Positions 21,234 through 49,748 of a stretch of 64,000 nucleotides of DNA are shown piece after piece. Under the pieces are notes generated by a model. That model was not told the origin of the DNA. It saw only the letters and a program-made list of their open reading frames with translations, and did not search any database. Origin of the DNA: Gluconobacter sp. P1C6_b (GTDB taxonomy: Bacteria; Pseudomonadota; Alphaproteobacteria; Acetobacterales; Acetobacteraceae); the NCBI RefSeq assembly GCF_018811945.1, contig NZ_JACRVU010000014.1, positions 1 through 64,000 of the forward strand, in the 5' to 3' direction. The translations under genes and the position numbers were made by a program. The number at the start of each line of letters is the position of its first letter. Positions within the stretch are counted from its first letter, which is position 1.

Positions 21234-23741
21234 ATGTCTAAACCGGTAGAAACTCGAACAGCCTTAGTTCAGTTCCAAGGACATTTTGACGGTCTGGAAG
21301 ATGGTTCCGTCCGAGGGTGGGCGACATGTAATCTGGAAAAATTTTCTCCTGTAAGAATTCACATTATCATTGATGGGCAGGAAGTCGGAATGGCGATTGC
21401 CGATTTGCCCCGTGAAGACGTTCAGGAAACGTTTTCACTACCGACCGCCAACCTGGGTTTCAGTTTCCAAATACCATCAAGCTACTTTAACGGTGAAAAA
21501 CATACGCTTTCATTGCGTCTGGATGACCGTTCCGCTCTACCACTTTTATCCGATGGCATGACCTCGATCACATTTTTCGGCCATCTCAAGCCTTCTTATA
21601 AAAGTCATGTCGACGGCGTGAAGCAGGGGGCACTTCGCGGTTGGGTGCTTCGCAAGTTGCGGGATGGTGAAGAGACTGGTGGTGTGGTGCTATCAATTCT
21701 CGTCGATGGTATTCGGATCGGACAGACACGCGCAAACCGTTATCGTGGAGATGTTGCTGCCGTTTTGGGGTGTGATCCCAATTGCGGGTTTGAGTTTCCA
21801 ATTCCGCAAGCGTTAAGAGGAAGTGGCCAGCATACAATCAAGGTCTTGGCCCAGCCGGATGATATAGAGCTTGATGGCTGTCCAATAGTAACATCCTTTG
21901 CGGATGATGCATTTGAAAGCCGGATCATCGACGTCACCAACGAACTCGATGAAATTTACAGACGCATGGCGAAGCTGCGGCAGGAGCTTCGTGATCTCGT
22001 TCCCAAGCGTTCCTATACGTTGGGAGACTATGATCGATGGGCACGCAAATATTATGCTCTTTTGGGCAAACGAGTGGCTGAACAGCGCGGGCACGAAGAA
22101 AAAAATAGCGCATTCACGCCGCTTGTCTCAATTCTTTGCCCTGTCTATCGCCCGCTTGAAAGTGACTTCAAGGCAGCTGTCCAGTCTGTTCTTGATCAGA
22201 CCTATCAGAATTGGGAGCTTATCCTGGTTGATGATGCGGGTAAAAGTCGCGAAACAACGGAAATCATCAATAACTTCGCCAAAATCGATCCACGCATCAA
22301 ATGTATTGCCCTAAAAAAGAATGTGGGAATTGCTGGCGCTACAAATGTAGCAATGGATGCTGCCAAAGGGCAGTATGTTGCTTTCTTTGATCATGATGAT
22401 CTTCTGGTGGATGTTGCTATTGAAGTCATGGTGCGAGCGGCTCATGAAACCGGAGCCAAGCTGCTTTATTCGGATGAGGATAAAATCGATCAGGCCGGGT
22501 ATTACCTGGAACCCAATCTCAAACCTGATTTCAACTATCGTTATCTTCTTGGCTGCAATTATATATGTCATTTAACGATGGTAGATGCTGCGACAATGCG
22601 GAAGATTGGGCATCTCAACTCCGATTACAACGGAGCGCAGGACCATGATTTCGTACTGAAAGCAACGGAAGTTCTTAGTCCATCGGAAATTTTCCATGTG
22701 CCCGAAATTCTTTATCACTGGCGTAAAACCCCCAATTCCACAGCTGTTGATGTGAGCCAGAAAACTTACGCGATCAATGCCGGCGTAAAATGTGTGACCG
22801 ACCATCTCAAGAGGCAGAAAATAGCCTCAAAGGTTTCGTCCATCCGCGGGCTGACGCTTTATGGTGTAGAATGGACCTCGCGTACCCAGCCGTCAGTGAC
22901 CATCATCATTCCCTTTAAAGATCAGCTGGATACGACGCTTACCTGCATCGAAAATATCCTCAAACATACGGTTTACAAGAATTACAATATTATTCTGATC
23001 GATAATTGGTCGGTGCGTGATGAGACACTGGATTTTATCAAAAAAATTCAGGAACATAAAAATGTTTCCGTCATAACGGTAGAAGAACCATTTAATTTTT
23101 CCAGGCTTAACAATATCGCGGTAGATCAAACCACAGCTGATTATGTCGTATTCATGAATAACGACGTGTTTGTGGAAGACGCAAAGTGGTTACACCGGCT
23201 GGTTGGAGAAGCCCAGGCATTTAAAGATGTCGGAGCTGTGGGTGCCAAGCTACTTTATCCTAATGATACGATCCAGCACGCCGGTGTAGCTGTTGGTCCA
23301 GCTGGTGTGGCAGCTCATGTTCATCGGGGGGATCCGTTATCAGAATATGGTTATATTGGCCGCACCATGCTTTCGCACGAAGTAACAGCTGTTACTGCGG
23401 CCCTGATGCTGGTCAGACGGACTGTTTTTGATGAGGTGGGCGGATTTGATGAAGAAGCGCTGAAAGTTGCTTTCAATGACGTCGATCTATGTTTGAAAAT
23501 TCGTCGGGCCGGATACCGGATTATCTTTAGTGCTGAGACGGTTGCCTATCATCACGAGAGTCTGTCTCGTGGAACTGATGACAAACCCGAACATGAAACG
23601 CGCTTCTTCCTGGAAACCCAGACTATGCTCGAACGCTGGAGTTCAGATCCGCTGTTTGAACGCGACCCATCTTATCCGCGCTATTTTACTGTCGACCAGC
23701 AGACATTCTTTAACCTGATAGATCCTGAAGACCTTCCCTGA
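21234..23741 (+). CDS. Large tandem-domain family 2 glycosyltransferase
   Basis: The 835-residue protein has two N-terminal beta modules with a repeated GWA/GWV signature (GSVRGWATCN about 25, GALRGWVLRK about 135). A helical linker (about 240-290) follows. Next come two GT-A domains: the first starts PLVSILCPVYRP (about 298) with the metal motif FDHDD (about 385-389), the second starts VTIIIPFKDQ (about 556) with MNNDVF (about 640). This layout is seen in enzymes for rhamnose-rich O-antigen or exopolysaccharide. Base composition is A+T-rich compared with the core genes. The start lacks a strong ribosome site. Confidence 0.85.
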   Translation: MSKPVETRTALVQFQGHFDGLEDGSVRGWATCNLEKFSPVRIHIIIDGQEVGMAIADLPREDVQETFSLPTANLGFSFQIPSSYFNGEKHTLSLRLDDRSALPLLSDGMTSITFFGHLKPSYKSHVDGVKQGALRGWVLRKLRDGEETGGVVLSILVDGIRIGQTRANRYRGDVAAVLGCDPNCGFEFPIPQALRGSGQHTIKVLAQPDDIELDGCPIVTSFADDAFESRIIDVTNELDEIYRRMAKLRQELRDLVPKRSYTLGDYDRWARKYYALLGKRVAEQRGHEEKNSAFTPLVSILCPVYRPLESDFKAAVQSVLDQTYQNWELILVDDAGKSRETTEIINNFAKIDPRIKCIALKKNVGIAGATNVAMDAAKGQYVAFFDHDDLLVDVAIEVMVRAAHETGAKLLYSDEDKIDQAGYYLEPNLKPDFNYRYLLGCNYICHLTMVDAATMRKIGHLNSDYNGAQDHDFVLKATEVLSPSEIFHVPEILYHWRKTPNSTAVDVSQKTYAINAGVKCVTDHLKRQKIASKVSSIRGLTLYGVEWTSRTQPSVTIIIPFKDQLDTTLTCIENILKHTVYKNYNIILIDNWSVRDETLDFIKKIQEHKNVSVITVEEPFNFSRLNNIAVDQTTADYVVFMNNDVFVEDAKWLHRLVGEAQAFKDVGAVGAKLLYPNDTIQHAGVAVGPAGVAAHVHRGDPLSEYGYIGRTMLSHEVTAVTAALMLVRRTVFDEVGGFDEEALKVAFNDVDLCLKIRRAGYRIIFSAETVAYHHESLSRGTDDKPEHETRFFLETQTMLERWSSDPLFERDPSYPRYFTVDQQTFFNLIDPEDLP

Positions 23742-26749: not shown

Positions 26750-27250
26750 TCAGGCAGCGGAGCGCCGAAGGGCTTCCGGCAGGCTGTCGATGCCCTTGTC
26801 GATCAGGGTTGCGGCGATGTCGGGGCTCTCCGTCAGACGGGTCGACACGACGTCGCGGGCTGCGGCAACGGCGATCTGGGCAGCGCGATCCTGGATCTCA
26901 CGGATGGCCGAACGTTCGGCTGCGTGAATGCGATCCTGCGCCATCTTTTCATAACGGGCTGCGGCGGCTTCGGCGTCCTGACGGGCGCGTTCTGCCAGAC
27001 CGGCGGCCTCGGCTTCGGAGCGTGCAAGCATGGCCTGTGTTTCGGCCAGGGTCTTTTCACGCTCGCGGGTGGCATCTTCCAGCATCTGTTCGGCTTCACG
27101 ACGCAGACGGGCCGCCTCGTCGAGGTCGTGGCGGACGCTGTCGGCACGCGCATCCAGATGGCCGGTGATGGCGACCCAGAGCTTGCGTCCGAAAATGACG
27201 AAGAACAGGACGAAGGCGAGGGCGGTCCAGAACCGGGGATCGTGGAACAT
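26750..27250 (-). CDS. atpF: F0F1 ATP synthase subunit b
   Basis: The 166-residue protein has an N-terminal membrane helix (FWTALAFVLFFVIFGRKLW) and a long charged, alanine-rich coiled coil that forms the peripheral stalk. It is the second of two b-type genes, which pairs with b' in alphaproteobacteria and cyanobacteria. It is 10 nt after the b' gene. Confidence 0.93.
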   Translation of the reverse strand: MFHDPRFWTALAFVLFFVIFGRKLWVAITGHLDARADSVRHDLDEAARLRREAEQMLEDATREREKTLAETQAMLARSEAEAAGLAERARQDAEAAAARYEKMAQDRIHAAERSAIREIQDRAAQIAVAAARDVVSTRLTESPDIAATLIDKGIDSLPEALRRSAA

Positions 27251-27260
27251 CTTCGTCTCC

Positions 27261-27821
27261 TTAGGCGCTGACGCGTTTGACGGCGCTGGCGACAGTCTGT
27301 TCGTCCTGCGTGCCGATCAGACGCGAAACCAGATCCTGGGTGGTGCTGGTGGCGATCTCGGACAGGCTGGACAGGGCCTGTTCACGGGACTGGGTGATAC
27401 GGGTCTCGGCGCTCGCGATCTCGGCTTCGAGGCGCTTGGCCGTTTCCGCAGCGTAAGATTCCGCATTGGTGCGGGCTTCGCTCTGGATCCGCTCCACATG
27501 GGCGCGGGCCTGCTCGGCTGCTTCATGACGGGCGCTGAGGAGTTCCGCGCTGGCGCGGTCGGCTTCAGCCTTGGCCTTGCGGGCAACATCCAGATCGTTC
27601 TGGATCCGGGTACGACGGTTGGTCAGCACCCGTTCGACACGCGGCAGTGCGAAGCGGCTCAGGGCGAGGTAGAAGCCGCCGAAGATGACGGCTCCCCAGA
27701 CGACCTGTCCGATCAGCAGCGGATCGTGGAAGTTCAGCTGTGGCATGCCCGCAGCCACGGCACGGCCCGGCACGGCCGCAAGCGGAGCGGCGAACAGGAA
27801 GAGGCGTGGCGTACGGTACAT
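27261..27821 (-). CDS. atpG: F0F1 ATP synthase subunit b'
   Basis: The 186-residue protein has a short hydrophobic leader (LFLFAAPLAAVPGRAVAA), then the membrane helix of subunit b' (PLLIGQVVWGAVIFGGFYLALSR in part) and a coiled-coil stalk ending in a DEQTVASAVKRVSA tail. The order c, b', b is characteristic of the split alphaproteobacterial F0 operon. The symbol atpG for b' is used variably in the literature. Confidence 0.88.
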   Translation of the reverse strand: MYRTPRLFLFAAPLAAVPGRAVAAGMPQLNFHDPLLIGQVVWGAVIFGGFYLALSRFALPRVERVLTNRRTRIQNDLDVARKAKAEADRASAELLSARHEAAEQARAHVERIQSEARTNAESYAAETAKRLEAEIASAETRITQSREQALSSLSEIATSTTQDLVSRLIGTQDEQTVASAVKRVSA

Positions 27822-27829
27822 GTTCGACC

Positions 27830-28087
27830 TCAGGCGAACAGGATCAGGAAGGCGATCAGCAGGGCGAACAGCGCGACGGCTTCCGTCAGCGCGAAGCCCA
27901 GCATGCCGATGCCGAAGACATGCGGCCGCGAGGCCGGGTTGCGTGCAACCGAGCTGATCAGCGTCGAGAAGATGTTGCCGAGACCCATGCCGACACCGGC
28001 GAGGGCGAAAACGGCAATACCGGCACCGAGGTCACGGGCGGCCTGGGCGATGCTGATGCCGAATTCGTGAGCGGCTTGAACGTCCAT
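27830..28087 (-). CDS. atpE: F0F1 ATP synthase subunit c
   Basis: This 85-residue proteolipid hairpin has helix 1 with [20 protein letters not shown], the polar loop ARNPASR, and helix 2 with the proton-carrying Glu in [13 protein letters not shown]. It forms the rotor ring. AAGGAACC precedes ATG at 28087. Confidence 0.96.
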
Positions 28088-28139
28088 TGTCAGGTTCCTT
28101 GTTGGGTCGATTAAAGGGTTAGTGCGAAGCTGGTGTGGC

Positions 28140-28907
28140 TCAGTGAGCGACGGCCTCACGCAGATAGATGCAGGTGAGGATGGCGAACACATAGGCCTGC
28201 AGCACACCCACCAGCAGTTCGAGGGCCGTCAGCGCGATGTTGATCGCGATCGGGGCGATGGCCAGGACATGGCCGAATGCGCCCAGACCGGCGAGCATGA
28301 TCGTGAAGCCGGCAAACACTTCCAGAAGCACGTGACCCGCCACCATGTTGGCGAAAAGTCGGATCGACAGGCTGACCGGACGCGAAAGGAAAGAGATGAT
28401 CTCGATCGGCACCAGCAGCGGAGCAAGCCAGACAGGCGTTCCAGCGGGCAGGAAGTGCTTGAGGAAGCCGACACCCTGAAAACGGATGGAAGCAAGGATC
28501 GAGATGACGAACACCATGATGGCCAGGCCGAAGGTCACGGCGATATGGCTGGTGTACGTGAAGGAGAAGGGCAGCAGGCCGAGATAGTTGCCGGCCAGGA
28601 TGAAGAAGAAGATCGCGAAGACGAACGGGAAGAACGTTGCGCCGTTTTCACCGATCGTGCTGACGGCGAGGTCGTGGACGAAATCGTAGCTGATCTCGGC
28701 GGCGGCCTGAAGGCGGCCCGGCACGACGGCGGCAGGGCGCATCCCGACATACAGGAAGACCAGAACGACGGCAGCGGCGATCAGCATGAACAGTGGCGAC
28801 TGCGAGAACCGCAGGGCTTCTCCCAGATGTCCAAGAACCGGATGGAGCTCGAACTGTCCGAGCGCGTCAATCGTCGATCCGGCTGCCACGCTGGCTTCTC
28901 CCGTCAT
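28140..28907 (-). CDS. atpB: F0F1 ATP synthase subunit a
   Basis: The 255-residue membrane protein has the essential Arg in [14 protein letters not shown], the [16 protein letters not shown] helix, and [15 protein letters not shown] near the C-terminus, which holds the Glu and Gln of the proton half-channels. Its first 41 bases overlap the 3' end of atpI, so the two are translationally coupled. Confidence 0.96.
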
Positions 28908-29235
28908 CTTTCGGTCCGGACACCATGTCCGAATCCTTCAAAACCCGCCAGACATTCAACATGCCGGCACCACATCCTGCCAGGGCGAAAACGGACAGGA
29001 ACAGAGCCCTGTACCCGAACCAGTGACCTAGCGCGTAGCCTATGGCTACACCGACCGCGAGCCCGGCCACAAGGTCCGTTCCCACGCGGATCGCCAGTCC
29101 AAGGGATGACATGGAACTGTCATCATTGCCCTCGTCGGTTACGGCGAACTCCCCGGCATGGGGATCAAGCTTCTGACGCGCACGCCGCAGGCGCTCGTCG
29201 AAGTTTCCGTCGTCACCGGCAGGGGCGTGTCCCAT
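28867..29235 (-). CDS. atpI: ATP synthase accessory protein AtpI/AtpZ type
   Basis: The 122-residue protein has a charged N-terminal half and two helices (GTDLVAGLAVGVAIGYALGHWFG, LFLSVFALAGCGAGMLNVWR) with the acidic residue typical of AtpI in helix 1. It helps c-ring assembly or Mg2+ supply in other species. First gene of the operon, behind a consensus promoter. Confidence 0.9.
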   Translation of the reverse strand: MGHAPAGDDGNFDERLRRARQKLDPHAGEFAVTDEGNDDSSMSSLGLAIRVGTDLVAGLAVGVAIGYALGHWFGYRALFLSVFALAGCGAGMLNVWRVLKDSDMVSGPKDDGRSQRGSRIDD

Positions 29236-29378: not shown

Positions 29379-30851
29379 CTAGCTGACCAGTTTCAGGCGG
29401 CGCCCGCGGTCCTTCCATTCCGGACTTTCACCGGACCCGCGTCCGAAGGGCAGCATGGGGGCTGGATCTTCCGAACTGGGTTCGACGCGGGGGGCGTCCG
29501 GCATGTGCTCGCCCAGATAGGCTTCCGACAGAGTGCGGAAGGCATAATCGAGCATGGAGGTCGCGTAAGCCGTGGACGGATCGCCCTCGACAGTGCCTGC
29601 GGGCCCGAAGCGCGTATAGGCGAATCGCTCCACAAAGGCCTCCAGCGGGGCACCATATTGCAGGCCGATGCTGACGGCATGGCTCAGGCAGTCCATCAGG
29701 CCGCGGGCCATAGGGCTCTCGCGGGGCGGGGTAAGACTGATTTCGCCGAGCGTGCCGTCCTCGAATTCGCTGGTCCGCATGAAAAGACTGTGACCGCCCA
29801 CGGCCGCACGCTGGGTGAAACCGGTCTGGCGCATGGGAAGCGGGCGACGCACGCCACGGGCCAGCCTGGCCTGAAGGTCGGCCAGATCGGGTTCCGGCAC
29901 CGCCGGCAGGAAGTCTACGACGTTCTTCACGGCAGCGTGCATCGCAGCCTGGGCCTGTGGGCGAACGGGTGGGAGCGGGGTCTCGCCAGCCAGCGCGAGC
30001 GCCAGAGCGGATTCGGGGGTTAGGCCACGGCACGCCAGTCGCGCCAGCGTGGATGCACGCAGATGTCCATCTTCGCGCAGCGGCGAGAAGGCTGGGGCGA
30101 GGCCGCAGGTTTCAACGCCCAGCAGGCCTTCGGTTGCGGCCGGGGAGGAAAATCCGGTTTCGATCGGGCAGAAATGCCGACCCTCTTCCGTGGCGCAGAC
30201 CGAGGATGCGATGGTTCGCAGTCCCGGCAGGGGCGATTCCGGAATGGAAGGCGGGGACAGCTTTGTTCCGGCGCGGGCTACCGTGGTGGCGAGCGCGGCC
30301 ATGGCACAGGCCGCAGTGCGGGCGTCGTCACTATCATAGTCGAGACCGAGGGCTGCCAGGCAGGCATCGAGATCGGTCAGGAGAATGAGGCCTGCGGCTT
30401 CGTCTTCAGGCTGGGCCGGCAGATCGAACAGGGGCAGCTCACCTGTACGTTCGATCCGGGTCGCGGCGTGAAGGCGGCGCAGGGCGTCGCAGGCCAGGCG
30501 GAGGCAGGCGACGAAATGTTCGGCAGCGAATCCGGCCTCCTGCACGAAACTGGACAGGCGGATGGTGAAGCCGGGCGTCTGGTCGGGCTGGCACTGCCAC
30601 AGCGCGGTGTTGGGCGCCATCTGCTGCATCAGCAGAAGATAGGACAGGCTCCGGCCGGGTGACGGGGTGTTGGCCGGGGTGCCGGGAAGGGGTGGGCACG
30701 CATCGATCGTGTCCACCCAGCGGGCGGCCTCCGCGGCAAGTCTGACCGGCCCACCGTTCAGGGTGATCTGGGCGAGGGCCTGTGCGGCCACGTCATCCCA
30801 GGCGGCAGGAAGGGTGACGGAGCGCAGGGCGCTGTCGTCGGGGTCGGTCAT
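29379..30851 (-). CDS. Stand-alone TSCPD-type protein like the C-terminus of class II ribonucleotide reductase
   Basis: A 490-residue protein if started at ATG 30851 (30869 and 30902 are alternatives). The C-terminal 170 residues match the end of B12-dependent NrdJ: MRQTGFTQRAAVGGHSLF, RTSEFEDGTLGEI, MARGLMDCLSHAVSIGLQYG, PLEAFVERFAYTRFGPAG, TSMLDYAFRTLSEAYLG. The N-terminal two thirds show no catalytic RNR barrel signatures and are Ala/Leu-rich. It may be a regulator or scaffold for nucleotide reduction, but this is inference. It is upstream of, and parallel to, the F0 operon, with about 140 bp between. Confidence 0.75.
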   Translation of the reverse strand: MTDPDDSALRSVTLPAAWDDVAAQALAQITLNGGPVRLAAEAARWVDTIDACPPLPGTPANTPSPGRSLSYLLLMQQMAPNTALWQCQPDQTPGFTIRLSSFVQEAGFAAEHFVACLRLACDALRRLHAATRIERTGELPLFDLPAQPEDEAAGLILLTDLDACLAALGLDYDSDDARTAACAMAALATTVARAGTKLSPPSIPESPLPGLRTIASSVCATEEGRHFCPIETGFSSPAATEGLLGVETCGLAPAFSPLREDGHLRASTLARLACRGLTPESALALALAGETPLPPVRPQAQAAMHAAVKNVVDFLPAVPEPDLADLQARLARGVRRPLPMRQTGFTQRAAVGGHSLFMRTSEFEDGTLGEISLTPPRESPMARGLMDCLSHAVSIGLQYGAPLEAFVERFAYTRFGPAGTVEGDPSTAYATSMLDYAFRTLSEAYLGEHMPDAPRVEPSSEDPAPMLPFGRGSGESPEWKDRGRRLKLVS

Positions 30852-31100
30852 GACCTGAAGCGTCCTCATGCGAACGCCGGTCCAGTGAAGGCGAGCTGTC
30901 ATATTGCGAATCTACGCCCTGCGCCCATGGGCCCGTAAGCCGGAAAAGGGCCTGTGGAAGGCCGCTAATGGGCGGGAACATGGGGATATGGGGGATAACA
31001 TTTTCCCGGGGACGGCCGAGCGACGATTTCTGCGGGAAGATTGGACGCGCGAAGCGGAGTCGGGTAGTGCTGGAAGGATGATTTTCACGAGGGTATCGTC

Positions 31101-31625
31101 ATGAGCGCTGTCACGGTCCGTCATGACCGGCTGGAGCTTCTGGCTGGGTTCGCTGTCCTGGCCTGCCTTGCGGGTCTTCTGGTCGCGGCGATGGTCGGGC
31201 ACCATCAGAGCGATGACGGGGGCTACCCTGTGCATGCGTCCTTCAGCCAGATCGACGGTCTGACGGTTGGTTCCGATGTGCGGCTGGCGGGCATTACCGT
31301 GGGGCACGTGACCGGCGCCGTGGTCGACCCTAGGAGCTTTCAGGCGCAGGTGACATTTACGCTCGCACCCGATGTGAAGCTGCCGACGGATTCCGCAGCA
31401 ATTGTGACGTCTGACAGCCTGCTGGGCGGGAAATACATCGCGCTGTCTCCAGGTGGAGCGGATTCGGTGGTGAAGCCGGGCGGTGTCATGACCGAGACGC
31501 AGGGCTCCATCAGTCTGGAGCAGCTTCTGAGCAAGTTCATTTTCTCCGTGACGGATTCGCTGCAGAAGAGCCAGAAGGCGGCTGCGGGAAAGCCGGCGAC
31601 GGGCAGTCTGGCGGATGAACCCTGA
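31101..31625 (+). CDS. mlaD: MlaD-type MCE domain protein (phospholipid transport)
   Basis: The 174-residue protein has a single N-terminal anchor (LLAGFAVLACLAGLLVAAMV, about 12-32) and one MCE domain: YPVHASFSQIDGLTVGSDVRLAGITVG in part, through LLGGKYIALSPGG. MlaD forms a hexameric periplasmic ring that takes phospholipids to the inner membrane with MlaE/MlaF. Those partners are not in the window. GAGGG precedes ATG. The 249-bp gap upstream holds no convincing gene. Confidence 0.9.
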   Translation: MSAVTVRHDRLELLAGFAVLACLAGLLVAAMVGHHQSDDGGYPVHASFSQIDGLTVGSDVRLAGITVGHVTGAVVDPRSFQAQVTFTLAPDVKLPTDSAAIVTSDSLLGGKYIALSPGGADSVVKPGGVMTETQGSISLEQLLSKFIFSVTDSLQKSQKAAAGKPATGSLADEP

Positions 31626-31628
31626 GCC

Positions 31629-31871
31629 ATGACGGATGCGCAGAAAAATGCGTTTCTGTGGGTCGACCACGAGGGCAATCCCGTGTCCTGTGTGGAGAAG
31701 GTCCAGATCCTGCGGGAAAACGATGCCGAGCTGCGTCAGGCCCTGCAGGATGCGTATGATGACGGGGTTCTGATGGGGGTTGCACCTCAGGCGATGCTGC
31801 AGACGTTTCAGGCCATGCTGTCCGATCTGAAGAGCCCGTTTCAGGGTGGGACTCAGGAGAAAGAGTCATGA
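31629..31871 (+). CDS. Small protein of unknown function between mlaD and DUF2155 gene
   Basis: The 80-residue soluble protein begins three bases after mlaD and overlaps the next gene by ATGA. It has an N-terminal beta-like part (NAFLWVDHEGNPVSCVEKV) and a helical part with acidic residues (ENDAELRQALQDAYDDGVLMG). The tight spacing shows it is translated with its neighbours. No family is recognised. Confidence 0.7.
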   Translation: MTDAQKNAFLWVDHEGNPVSCVEKVQILRENDAELRQALQDAYDDGVLMGVAPQAMLQTFQAMLSDLKSPFQGGTQEKES

Positions 31872-32560
31872 TGAAGCTCTGGTCGGACCGGGTTCTGCTG
31901 CCGTGCGGGGCTGCCGCAATGATTCTGCTTTGCGGAGTTTCGGGCGCGCGGGCCGCCACAGGTGTCGCGCCCCCGGCGATGTATCCGGCTGCAACCTGGC
32001 AGGGGCAGTCGCAGGCTGTGGTGCGCGTGCTGGACCGGCTGGATGCACATCTGGAGCTTCTGACGATTCCCGTGGGCGGGAGCGCGACCTATCACAGTCT
32101 TTCCGTGGGTGTTGAAGCCTGTGTCAGCCGGCCGCAGACGCTGGCCGCGGATGCCGGAGCCCTGCTGCATCTGAAGGACAGCAGCGATCCGCAGCGGCCG
32201 CCTTTCGATGGCTGGATGCTGGCTCAGGAGCCTTCTGTCGCAACTTATGGCAGCCCTTTGTACGATGTGCGCGTTGTCTCCTGCGCGGGAGTGCCGACGG
32301 CACCTCAGGCGGGGCCTCTGCCTGTGGTGAAGGCACCCGTGCTCGCCAGTGCGGAGGTTCCGGTGGAAGAAGGCGGCGATGCTCCGGCATCCCAGCCCGG
32401 TTCTGCCTCAGGCGGTCCTGTACCGCTTGCTCCGGACAGTCATAATCCCATTCCGCTCGCGCCTCCCAGTGGTGCGGCGCCGTCCCTTGCTCCGGCCATG
32501 CCAGCGCAGCCTTCGGGGCAGCCCCTGTCACCTCCCGAAGCTGATCCCGGCCTCGAATAA
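31868..32560 (+). CDS. DUF2155 domain secreted protein
   Basis: The 230-residue protein has a signal peptide (WSDRVLLPCGAAAMILLCGVSGARA in part, cut near residue 29) and a DUF2155 domain: AVVRVLDRLDAHLELL, VEACVSRP, PFDGWMLAQEPSV, YDVRVVSC. A Pro/Ala-rich, probably disordered tail follows (about 140-230). DUF2155 proteins of alphaproteobacteria sit in the periplasm next to mlaD; their role is unknown. GGAG precedes ATG 31868. Confidence 0.85.
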   Translation: MMKLWSDRVLLPCGAAAMILLCGVSGARAATGVAPPAMYPAATWQGQSQAVVRVLDRLDAHLELLTIPVGGSATYHSLSVGVEACVSRPQTLAADAGALLHLKDSSDPQRPPFDGWMLAQEPSVATYGSPLYDVRVVSCAGVPTAPQAGPLPVVKAPVLASAEVPVEEGGDAPASQPGSASGGPVPLAPDSHNPIPLAPPSGAAPSLAPAMPAQPSGQPLSPPEADPGLE

Positions 32561-48082: not shown

Positions 48083-49534
48083 TCAGATAATGGACATGAT
48101 CTGGGGGCCGAGAAGCGACTTCAGATTCATCCTGTCGTCACTCTCGAGTGTGGATGATTTCAGTAAGAATTCTTCATACGGAAAAGATCCTGCAGAATTG
48201 AGCATGTAATATATCAGGTCCGAGGCCGGACCCTCGTTGTCTCCAACGAATGTCAGTTCAGATACCTTTTCTCCGAAGTAAAACTTTTCCCAGTCTGAAG
48301 CCTCTTCCCGGGAAAATTCTACGCTTCCACCATGACCTACGGGAATGCAGGTCAGGTATTTTTGAGTTTTCGGAGATTGTATGAAGATGGAACCATCCGA
48401 TTCATTGGAATCGAATTCAAATTCATAGCAGTAATTGCTTTGGGCCGAGTGGCTGATGTGGAATCTGACATTTGAGGAATACACAAAAGGATTCCGGAAA
48501 ATCCAGATTTTATTGCTGTCGTAGGGGATAGCCGCCAGGATTCGCTCAAATCCCTCTCCCTGAAAGAGATGTCCATCAATGTTGTTCAGGGAAAGGTATT
48601 CGCCATGAATGCTTTTGAGATGGAAGAGATCCACTTTTCTGTGAGGAGTCAGGCTGTTTTCCGTGTTTTCCAGAGCGTTTCCTTTCTCGAGGAAATTCTT
48701 CATCGAATACTGGAAAACTGATTTTTTGATATTGTTGTAGACGGTATTTGCCGCATTGATGCGTGCCTGATCCTGGGGGTCATAGACATCATTGCGATCA
48801 AAATGAGACCAGTAGACCGTACTGTTCGACAGATCGGAGCCCAGGCGTCTTTTGATGCGGTCGATGAAATGCTCCATGGAGCGACAGATGTAATGATTGA
48901 TTCTGGCGCCTTCCCACAGGATGTTTTTCGTCGCCCCGGGACGCCATTCTACGGGCTGGCCAGCAGCGTCCGCGTAATTTCCATAGGACAGGTTGAACTT
49001 GTGGGGGTTTTCATACACGAAGCTGACAGCTTCTGGTCTTACGAAGCTCTTTACGAGCGTATTGTCATTAAGTTCGGGCGTCGATCTGTGGTTGAAGACC
49101 TGGTAGGTCGGGACCTTGTCTTTCAGGACCCTGCTGGAACTTCCGTATATGCACCAGCTTAGGGCAATTCCCGTGTCGTCTTTACGGAATTTGTCCAGAA
49201 ACCCGTTTATGTCTTGGGTGCCGTCGATGCTGACATATTCGTCACCATCCAGCATGGCGATCCACTCATAATGATCGATGGACTTCTTGATGGCATCAAA
49301 ATAGCTGTCGCGTTGTCTGTAGTAAAAATTGCCTTCAAGCATGGAAGTCCTGCAAACCTCCACGTTGTAAATTCCTTCGCAGGATTTGGCTATTTCATAG
49401 GTCCCGTCGGTCGAGTGGTCGTCATATACAAATATTTTATCGAACCCGAGGGAAATATGCCATGATAGCCATGCCATGATGTCATGGGCTTCGTCTTTAA
49501 CGAAAAGCACTATTGCAGATTTTTCTTTTTTCAC
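48083..49534 (-). CDS. Glycosyltransferase of GT92/PF13704 type with beta-trefoil-like C-terminus
   Basis: The frame codes for AIVLFVKDEAHDIMAWLSWHISLGFDKIFVYDDHSTDGT in several blocks, the pattern of GT-A 'Glyco_tranf_2_4' enzymes, with the metal motif MLDGDEY. From about residue 300 (FHLKSIHGEYLSL...IQSPKTQKYLTC) the sequence looks like a beta-trefoil lectin or fascin module. The frame stays open into tRNA-Gln, so an inner start is needed. GTG at 49534, 483 residues, behind CAGGG, fits best. The gene is A+T-rich and looks transferred. Confidence 0.75.
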   Translation of the reverse strand: MKKEKSAIVLFVKDEAHDIMAWLSWHISLGFDKIFVYDDHSTDGTYEIAKSCEGIYNVEVCRTSMLEGNFYYRQRDSYFDAIKKSIDHYEWIAMLDGDEYVSIDGTQDINGFLDKFRKDDTGIALSWCIYGSSSRVLKDKVPTYQVFNHRSTPELNDNTLVKSFVRPEAVSFVYENPHKFNLSYGNYADAAGQPVEWRPGATKNILWEGARINHYICRSMEHFIDRIKRRLGSDLSNSTVYWSHFDRNDVYDPQDQARINAANTVYNNIKKSVFQYSMKNFLEKGNALENTENSLTPHRKVDLFHLKSIHGEYLSLNNIDGHLFQGEGFERILAAIPYDSNKIWIFRNPFVYSSNVRFHISHSAQSNYCYEFEFDSNESDGSIFIQSPKTQKYLTCIPVGHGGSVEFSREEASDWEKFYFGEKVSELTFVGDNEGPASDLIYYMLNSAGSFPYEEFLLKSSTLESDDRMNLKSLLGPQIMSII

Positions 49535-49673
49535 GACGAAGACCCTGATTGATGTCGGAAGTATGTCCTTCCAGATTACATCCTTGATCGAGATTAGCCA
49601 AATCAGTTGACGTGCATTGTCCTGAACCGCGGCGGACCTGTTGCGGGAAGGATTTTCCGGTTTTTTTAGAGGC

Positions 49674-49748
49674 TGGCTGGGGTGGGAGGATTCGAACCTC
49701 CGCATGGCGGAATCAAAATCCGCTGCCTTACCGCTTGGCTACACCCCA
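49674..49748 (-). tRNA. tRNA-Gln (anticodon TTG)
   Basis: On the - strand the 75-nt cloverleaf begins TGGGGTGTAGCCAAGCGGTA. It has the anticodon arm GCGGA-TTTTGAT-TCCGC, with TTG as anticodon, the T-arm GGAGGTTCGAATCCTCC, and ends CCCCAGCCA with the CCA encoded. Confidence 0.95.

Follow-up and report, generated by a model that had tools for sequence, protein, structure and literature searches.

Probable in-place contraction of a class II ribonucleotide reductase gene in the Acetobacteraceae, with loss of catalysis

To our knowledge, few enzymes are as conserved across life as ribonucleotide reductase (RNR), and as a rule a lineage either retains an active large subunit or loses it. Betaherpesviruses carry inactive homologues of this subunit, one of them being the M45 protein of murine cytomegalovirus. 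Such homologues, including UL45 of human cytomegalovirus, are presented in the accessible parts of two articles as descendants of RNR in which catalysis has disappeared and binding functions persist (PMC11772975; PMC5469499). For bacteria, no report of an RNR pseudoenzyme was found in the open-access papers searched. The gene described here is carried by a stretch of 64,000 nucleotides from Gluconobacter sp. P1C6_b, a member of the Acetobacteraceae (assembly GCF_018811945.1, contig NZ_JACRVU010000014.1, positions 1 to 64,000), referred to as the window. It occupies positions 29379-30902 of the minus strand and codes for a protein of 507 residues. It is likely that the family's own nrdJ gene, coding for the class II, B12-dependent RNR, was contracted in place into a catalytically dead pseudoenzyme that acts by binding.

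The closest described system is the class II NrdJ of alphaproteobacteria (NCBIfam PRK07562; structure 7b9q). Both share the mlaD locus in most outgroups, a collinear N-terminus, second barrel half and TSCPD domain, and the predicted fold of the remaining part. In contrast, the Gluconobacter protein has 507 instead of about 1200 residues and is devoid of the first barrel half, the active-site cysteines, the middle segments and the zinc finger. According to the available sections of one study, long class II C-termini comprise an IscU-like domain and a zinc finger, and the study states that the IscU-like domain had no reported role (PMC9669993). The same sections describe the split NrdJa+b enzymes of the Pseudomonas type, in which NrdJb is, as here, a separate gene with an IscU-like/TSCPD domain (PMC9669993). 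NrdJb nevertheless has a zinc finger and works with the catalytic NrdJa, whereas the present protein has neither, its genome contains no class II barrel gene, and it bears a dead half barrel. The betaherpesvirus homologues differ in being viral and in acting on host signalling, while the present gene is bacterial, chromosomal and a contracted class II RNR. A named RNR-like subfamily also exists in NCBIfam (PRK06948, 'ribonucleotide reductase-like protein'), but its 604-residue model matches the barrel of intact RNRs and is not among the matches reported for the 507-residue protein at E values up to 1.

The open reading frame (ORF) 29379-30902 is intact. In the original prediction the gene started at position 30851, which is too late: W7, G9, V10 and R13, all encoded upstream of that position, vary little or not at all across 42 aligned sequences and place the start at 30902. 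The start codons of the relatives were picked by a script, so that a common start is not independent evidence, whereas the conserved residues are. A relative from Gluconobacter oxydans (L130) is 98% identical across the N-terminal 345 residues, the window being close to this species. With the protein as query, its own genome yielded the self-match only at E values up to 1, and a phmmer search of the PDB sequences returned a single unrelated match (E 0.085). The Pfam TSCPD domain PF12637 was identified at residues 373-462 (E 7.7e-9; 36.2 bits, above the gathering cut-off of 22.8), the sole TSCPD match of the genome. Residues 351-475 match part of PRK07562, the NCBIfam model of B12-dependent RNR (E 6.8e-40; 136.5 bits, far under the equivalog cut-off of 1737). 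The TSCPD (IscU-like) domain of NrdJ spans residues 347-475 (29478..29864, minus strand). A C-terminal likeness to class II NrdJ had been noticed before; it is borne out by these matches, over about 130 residues and not 170.

The N-terminal two thirds had been held to be unlike RNR, which proved wrong when the profile of 38 short proteins was compared with that of 20 intact alphaproteobacterial NrdJs (one row, L101, being incomplete at the N-terminus). Over the whole length, hhalign gave P 1.7e-47, three of the 20 NrdJ rows in that comparison being wrong ORFs. With the corrected NrdJ set and the TSCPD domain left out, residues 1-344 matched NrdJ 492-697 with P 1.2e-14 and a score of 122, against 17.7 and 16.8 for the reversed-profile controls, by which chance similarity to NrdJ is ruled out. 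The remnant of the second barrel half lies at residues 114-276 (30075..30563, minus strand) and begins just past the lost active-site cysteines. Two more collinear segments were found, each weak alone. Residues 3-105 (30588..30896, minus strand) align with NrdJ 11-159 (P 0.015), end in an APNxxxW motif and lie within the structural match given below; the resembling segment of relatives without TSCPD matches at P 0.009 in profile comparison. Residues 314-330 (29913..29963, minus strand), a helix, correspond to NrdJ 860-876 approximately (P 0.28), and the relatives without TSCPD keep NrdJ 491-876 as a continuous stretch. Motifs common to the family consensus and NrdJ L090 include APNxxxW/APNSPQW, LNLxxF/LNLxxF, LGLDYDSxxGR/SGIPYDSDxGR and CGLAPxFS/TGIEPDF. 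The whole protein is therefore a contracted class II RNR and not a C-terminal fragment joined to an unrelated N-terminus.

An AlphaFold2 model built with 42 family sequences had a mean predicted local distance difference test score (pLDDT) of 76, mostly above 80 for residues 20-330, and a predicted template modelling score of 0.64. All 48 PDB matches found by Foldseek at E ≤0.001 are RNRs, the top one being NrdJ of Rhodobacter sphaeroides (7b9q_A, E 2.3e-6). VIA-align superposed residues 7-345 of the model on chain residues 15-916 of 7b9q_A, with 331 residues aligned, a Z score of 24.6 and a root-mean-square deviation of 3.2 Å. In the model, practically all of the N-terminal part corresponds to an NrdJ from which large pieces have been removed. 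The first 345 residues have too few strands for a complete ten-stranded alpha/beta barrel. The comparison of a predicted structure with NrdJ, which the original prediction had suggested as a check, gives an RNR-like fold with an incomplete barrel. The catalytic barrel had been declared missing; part of it survives, recognisable and collinear, in a model that folds like an RNR. Descent from NrdJ is seen as collinear homology over the length of the protein, in the profile comparison as in the structural one, with end segments that are weak alone.

In the 20 NrdJs, 14 cysteines are invariant (numbering of NrdJ L090): 199, 464, 476 (in NPCSE), 487, 684, 846, 850, 893 and six at 1165-1191. The short protein is devoid of NrdJ residues 160-491 and 698-860 approximately, of most of 877-950 and of everything past about 1096. 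All 14 cysteines fall in these lost parts, except C684, which aligns with V263. C199, C476 and C487, which we take to be the redox pair and the thiyl-radical site, are all inside the missing 160-491. Across the 38 short proteins, no alignment column contains cysteine throughout; the best conserved one, C266, has it in 31 of them and is aligned with an NrdJ threonine. The C-terminal zinc finger is gone together with its six terminal cysteines, and the protein ends past the TSCPD domain in a cysteine-free tail. In the part of one article that is accessible, the cysteine-rich C-terminal domain of RNR is described as mediating turnover (PMC5704485). The attributes of an active class II RNR are accordingly all wanting: active-site cysteines, complete barrel, cysteine-rich zinc finger and the PRK07562 equivalog score, for which the intact NrdJ of another family member (G053) reaches 2097 bits against 136.5 bits here. 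An active mini-RNR is ruled out by the absence of the active-site cysteines. As judged from its sequence, the protein is a non-catalytic derivative of NrdJ and probably does a new, non-enzymatic job. The earlier suggestion of a free-standing NrdJ derivative without catalysis, which may have taken a new task, agrees with this.

The tail, residues 482-507 (29382..29459, minus strand), occupies the place of the NrdJ zinc finger. It is predicted to be disordered (pLDDT mostly below 50) and has two conserved elements, P-x-L-P and, at the very C-terminus, L-[RK]-L-V; P482, L484, P485, L503, L505 and V506 are invariant in the 42 sequences. The L-[RK]-L-V end is kept across most genera seen, though the preceding sequence is disordered and variable, a pattern reminiscent of a docking motif.

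A single RNR barrel match was obtained in the genome, the class I NrdA, encoded on another contig next to NrdB; neither protein contains an ATP-cone in Pfam. No class III NrdD was found, which leaves class I NrdAB as the sole RNR detected here. This agrees with the earlier observation that no catalytic partner is encoded next door, and the inventory of complete RNR genes that had been proposed as a check comes down to NrdAB, with neither NrdD nor a class II barrel gene. The protein could in principle be one subunit of a split class II RNR, an NrdJb whose catalytic partner lies elsewhere. This was judged very improbable and was rejected, since there is no catalytic partner, the sole barrel in the genome being class I, and since the zinc-finger cysteines of NrdJb are missing while the protein has a dead half barrel of its own. 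At the scale of the family, an RNR barrel gene was found in 144 of 150 genomes, usually a class I-like NrdA by its match pattern. The short protein has a match in 136 genomes, 132 of which also possess such a barrel gene. Two sequences (L049, L043) were read as further class II enzymes with cysteine-rich tails. Class II RNR is lacking in this genome, not family-wide.

The locus indicates where the gene came from. It was inspected in 100 loci, 20 from family genomes and 80 from records, some of which represent one genome twice (L110 and L150 have identical spacing) and some of which are cut by contig ends. In the window, the divergent neighbour is mlaD (31101..31625, plus strand; Pfam PF02470, E 2e-20), followed in the mlaD block by a DUF2155 gene (31868..32560, plus strand; PF09923). 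Near the short gene, mlaD is found in 98 of the 100 loci, the DUF2155 gene in 96 and the F0 ATP synthase gene atpB in 40. In all 28 arrangements listed, mlaD is divergent from the short gene. In one of the 100 loci (L118) it lies 6 kb away. For comparison, 24 outgroup genomes with an NrdJ match and listed coordinates of both genes were selected by us, G171 being left out, and the TSCPD match served to estimate where each NrdJ starts. A whole-genome mlaD search showed an intact nrdJ in divergent orientation to mlaD in 18 of these 24 alphaproteobacteria, less than 3 kb separating the estimated starts, and a looser pair in two others (G403, 3.4 kb; G413, 6.6 kb). The mlaD gene thus marks the ancestral nrdJ locus, and the short gene occupies what is most simply the ancestral nrdJ slot. 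The short gene and intact outgroup nrdJ both adjoin mlaD, in 98 of 100 loci and 18 of 24 outgroups, which amounts to positional orthology; it was therefore, in all likelihood, nrdJ itself that shrank in place.

The tree of the TSCPD region agrees with this origin. The 32 short proteins retained after thinning (38 before) form one clade with a support of 100/100 and a long stem among alphaproteobacterial NrdJs; its deeper placement is poorly supported. The clade is apart from the intact NrdJs of two family members, G053 and G130. These two genomes (L108, L109) code for an intact NrdJ of about 1200 residues in addition to the contracted gene. At least one genus consequently holds both forms, the intact NrdJ of G053 being a true PRK07562 member, through retention or reacquisition.

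The F0 ATP synthase genes (atpI, a, c and two b-type subunits; 26750..29235, minus strand) lie on the other side of the gene. The original prediction had remarked that they are co-directional with it; both are indeed on the minus strand, but the arrangement is incidental, with atpB in 40 of the 100 loci against mlaD in 98. A function linked to the F0 ATP synthase or to the adjoining Mla lipid-transport block is suggested by the gene neighbourhood in Gluconobacter. It is highly improbable: the link to the F0 ATP synthase was rejected on the 40 of 100 loci with atpB nearby, and intact nrdJ of the outgroups also adjoins mlaD. Between mlaD and the DUF2155 gene, an 80-residue conserved gene (31629-31871, plus strand) is present in 96 of the 100 loci and has no Pfam match above the cut-off. 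Elsewhere in the window, GC content dips to about 0.46-0.49, against about 0.61, at 21234-23741 (plus strand) and 48083-49705 (minus strand). Both dips coincide with glycosyltransferase genes and are possibly acquired surface-polysaccharide genes.

Relatives without TSCPD domain provide a natural dissection of the protein. The family profile was used to search 18 genomes without detected copy. Five of them match its N-terminal part (G045 and G125 from one genus; G097, G490 and G500 from another), two match weakly (G133, G050) and eleven do not match. mlaD is near all five genes. Four of the five are complete and end without TSCPD, the G097 copy being cut by a contig end, and no TSCPD match was found anywhere in these five genomes. 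The four complete proteins (L217-L220, from the two genera) align without interruption with NrdJ 491-876 (P 3.5e-20; score 164, against 16 for the reversed control); their match to the short family has P 4e-23. A Pfam scan covered two of the four, each of which passes the cut-off of the RNR barrel PF02867 (27.0 and 28.0 versus 23.9 bits). By eye, they share with the short family the jump from the APNxxxW-like region to LxxF. The simplest history suggested by these sequences would be one common deletion of the first barrel half, after which most lineages lost the later segment and two genera lost TSCPD. Since these two genera dispense with TSCPD, the shared core is the half barrel.

These genomes also bear on the TSCPD domain as a possible iron-sulfur or sulfur carrier of the IscU type. 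The isolated C-terminal domain was modelled with a pLDDT of 71 and gave weak fold matches, to lipoyltransferases (Z 7.4) and to SufU and IscU (Z up to 6.6), with no Foldseek match below E 0.001. The weak likeness of the model to SufU/IscU is compatible with the IscU-like domain described in the available sections of the study cited above (PMC9669993). Against a carrier function stand the absence of any conserved cysteine in the domain, C404 not being conserved, and the five genomes of two genera without any TSCPD match, and we consider this function hardly probable.

The distribution of the gene argues for its retention. With the full protein as query, matches were found in 136 of 150 family genomes and in 120 of the 126 of good quality. 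Addition of G045, G125 and G097 from the profile search brings the latter to 123 of 126, the remaining three being G062, G137 and G066. These tallies count any match with E up to 1e-5 without confirmation of the short form genome by genome; one genome (G038) matches residues 349-505 only, in an 801-residue frame, and several matches are contig-edge fragments. In a class-wide sample, 181 of 289 genomes match, and among the matches listed outside the family all but four are in frames of more than 1000 residues (exceptions 325, 812, 852 and 918 residues). Among the matches listed, the short form was recognised in this family only. In nine comparisons with relatives, the ratio of non-synonymous to synonymous substitution rates (dN/dS) ranged from 0.033 to 0.134, and from 0.033 to 0.074 where dS is below 1, dS being near saturation in distant pairs. 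Three comparisons of same-length proteins showed tighter constraint on the TSCPD half (0.036-0.040) than on the other half (0.075-0.096). Among close relatives the gene is under purifying selection, and nearly every good-quality family genome in the sample has retained it.

Several observations nevertheless weigh against a contracted but functional nrdJ with a generally conserved binding role. Four of the 24 outgroups (G164, G176, G279, G380) are without the nrdJ-mlaD pair. In G066 (L224), a genome of 2.0 Mb, mlaD directly faces atpI with no trace of the gene between, which is a clean loss, and four genomes of one other genus have no copy (none beside mlaD in loci L225-L227). Because of these losses the gene is not essential everywhere. 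Broken copies were found in G126, with an in-frame stop (C1:19465-20954), and in G136, where one of two copies has stops and one is split between frames (C1:7417-8941 and C1:1935652-1937177); they represent either decay or assembly error. Deep lineages are strongly diverged. By eye, the conserved C-terminal tail is absent from the forms without TSCPD. Finally, AlphaFold may have been drawn towards RNR folds that it had learned, although the sequence evidence does not depend on the model. The large deletions, the divergence of deep lineages, the broken copies and the five genomes of two genera without a copy would also be expected of a decaying, functionless relic. Such a relic is improbable and was rejected on conservation and dN/dS: a match persists in 123 of 126 good genomes, dN/dS of 0.03-0.13 is low in both halves, many residues are invariant and the C-terminal end is conserved.

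The preferred reading is thus that of an nrdJ contracted in place and retained for binding. Once class I RNR had taken over deoxynucleoside triphosphate (dNTP) synthesis, nrdJ would no longer have been needed as an enzyme and would have been retained because of a role in binding. The folded half barrel may be a platform that binds another protein; the TSCPD domain could mediate self-association, and the flexible conserved tail could be a docking motif. As binding partner, a protein of dNTP supply or DNA replication is judged somewhat likelier than others. In a more far-reaching and less probable reading, the class I takeover would have been followed by in-place conversion of the B12-dependent RNR to a dedicated regulator or scaffold without catalysis, which would serve DNA precursor supply or replication and would have persisted since the ancestor of the Acetobacteraceae. 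The most specific form of this idea, in which the protein would regulate or scaffold class I NrdAB by nucleotide sensing and a change of NrdA oligomer and so replace the missing ATP-cone, is rather doubtful. It would fit NrdA and NrdB being without ATP-cone and the only RNR detected in the genome, the RNR fold common to both proteins, and the co-occurrence of a short-protein match with an RNR barrel gene in 132 of 136 genomes. On the other side, G062, G137 and G066 have an RNR barrel gene and no short gene detected. The alpha-alpha interface segments and allosteric loops of RNR are presumably located in the part lost here. No NrdR-box-like palindrome was seen by eye, with no scan run, in 30903-31100.

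Overall, nearly a whole bacterial family kept an RNR gene yet discarded its catalysis. The part that matters is revealed by lineages that retained different remnants: they have the half barrel in common, but not the TSCPD domain. For annotation, a free-standing 'TSCPD domain' or 'B12-dependent RNR' label on this gene should not be read as a sign of B12-dependent dNTP synthesis. If its function were found, the protein would illustrate how an RNR fold can work in a cell without performing chemistry, and it might offer a handle on the IscU-like domain of class II RNRs.
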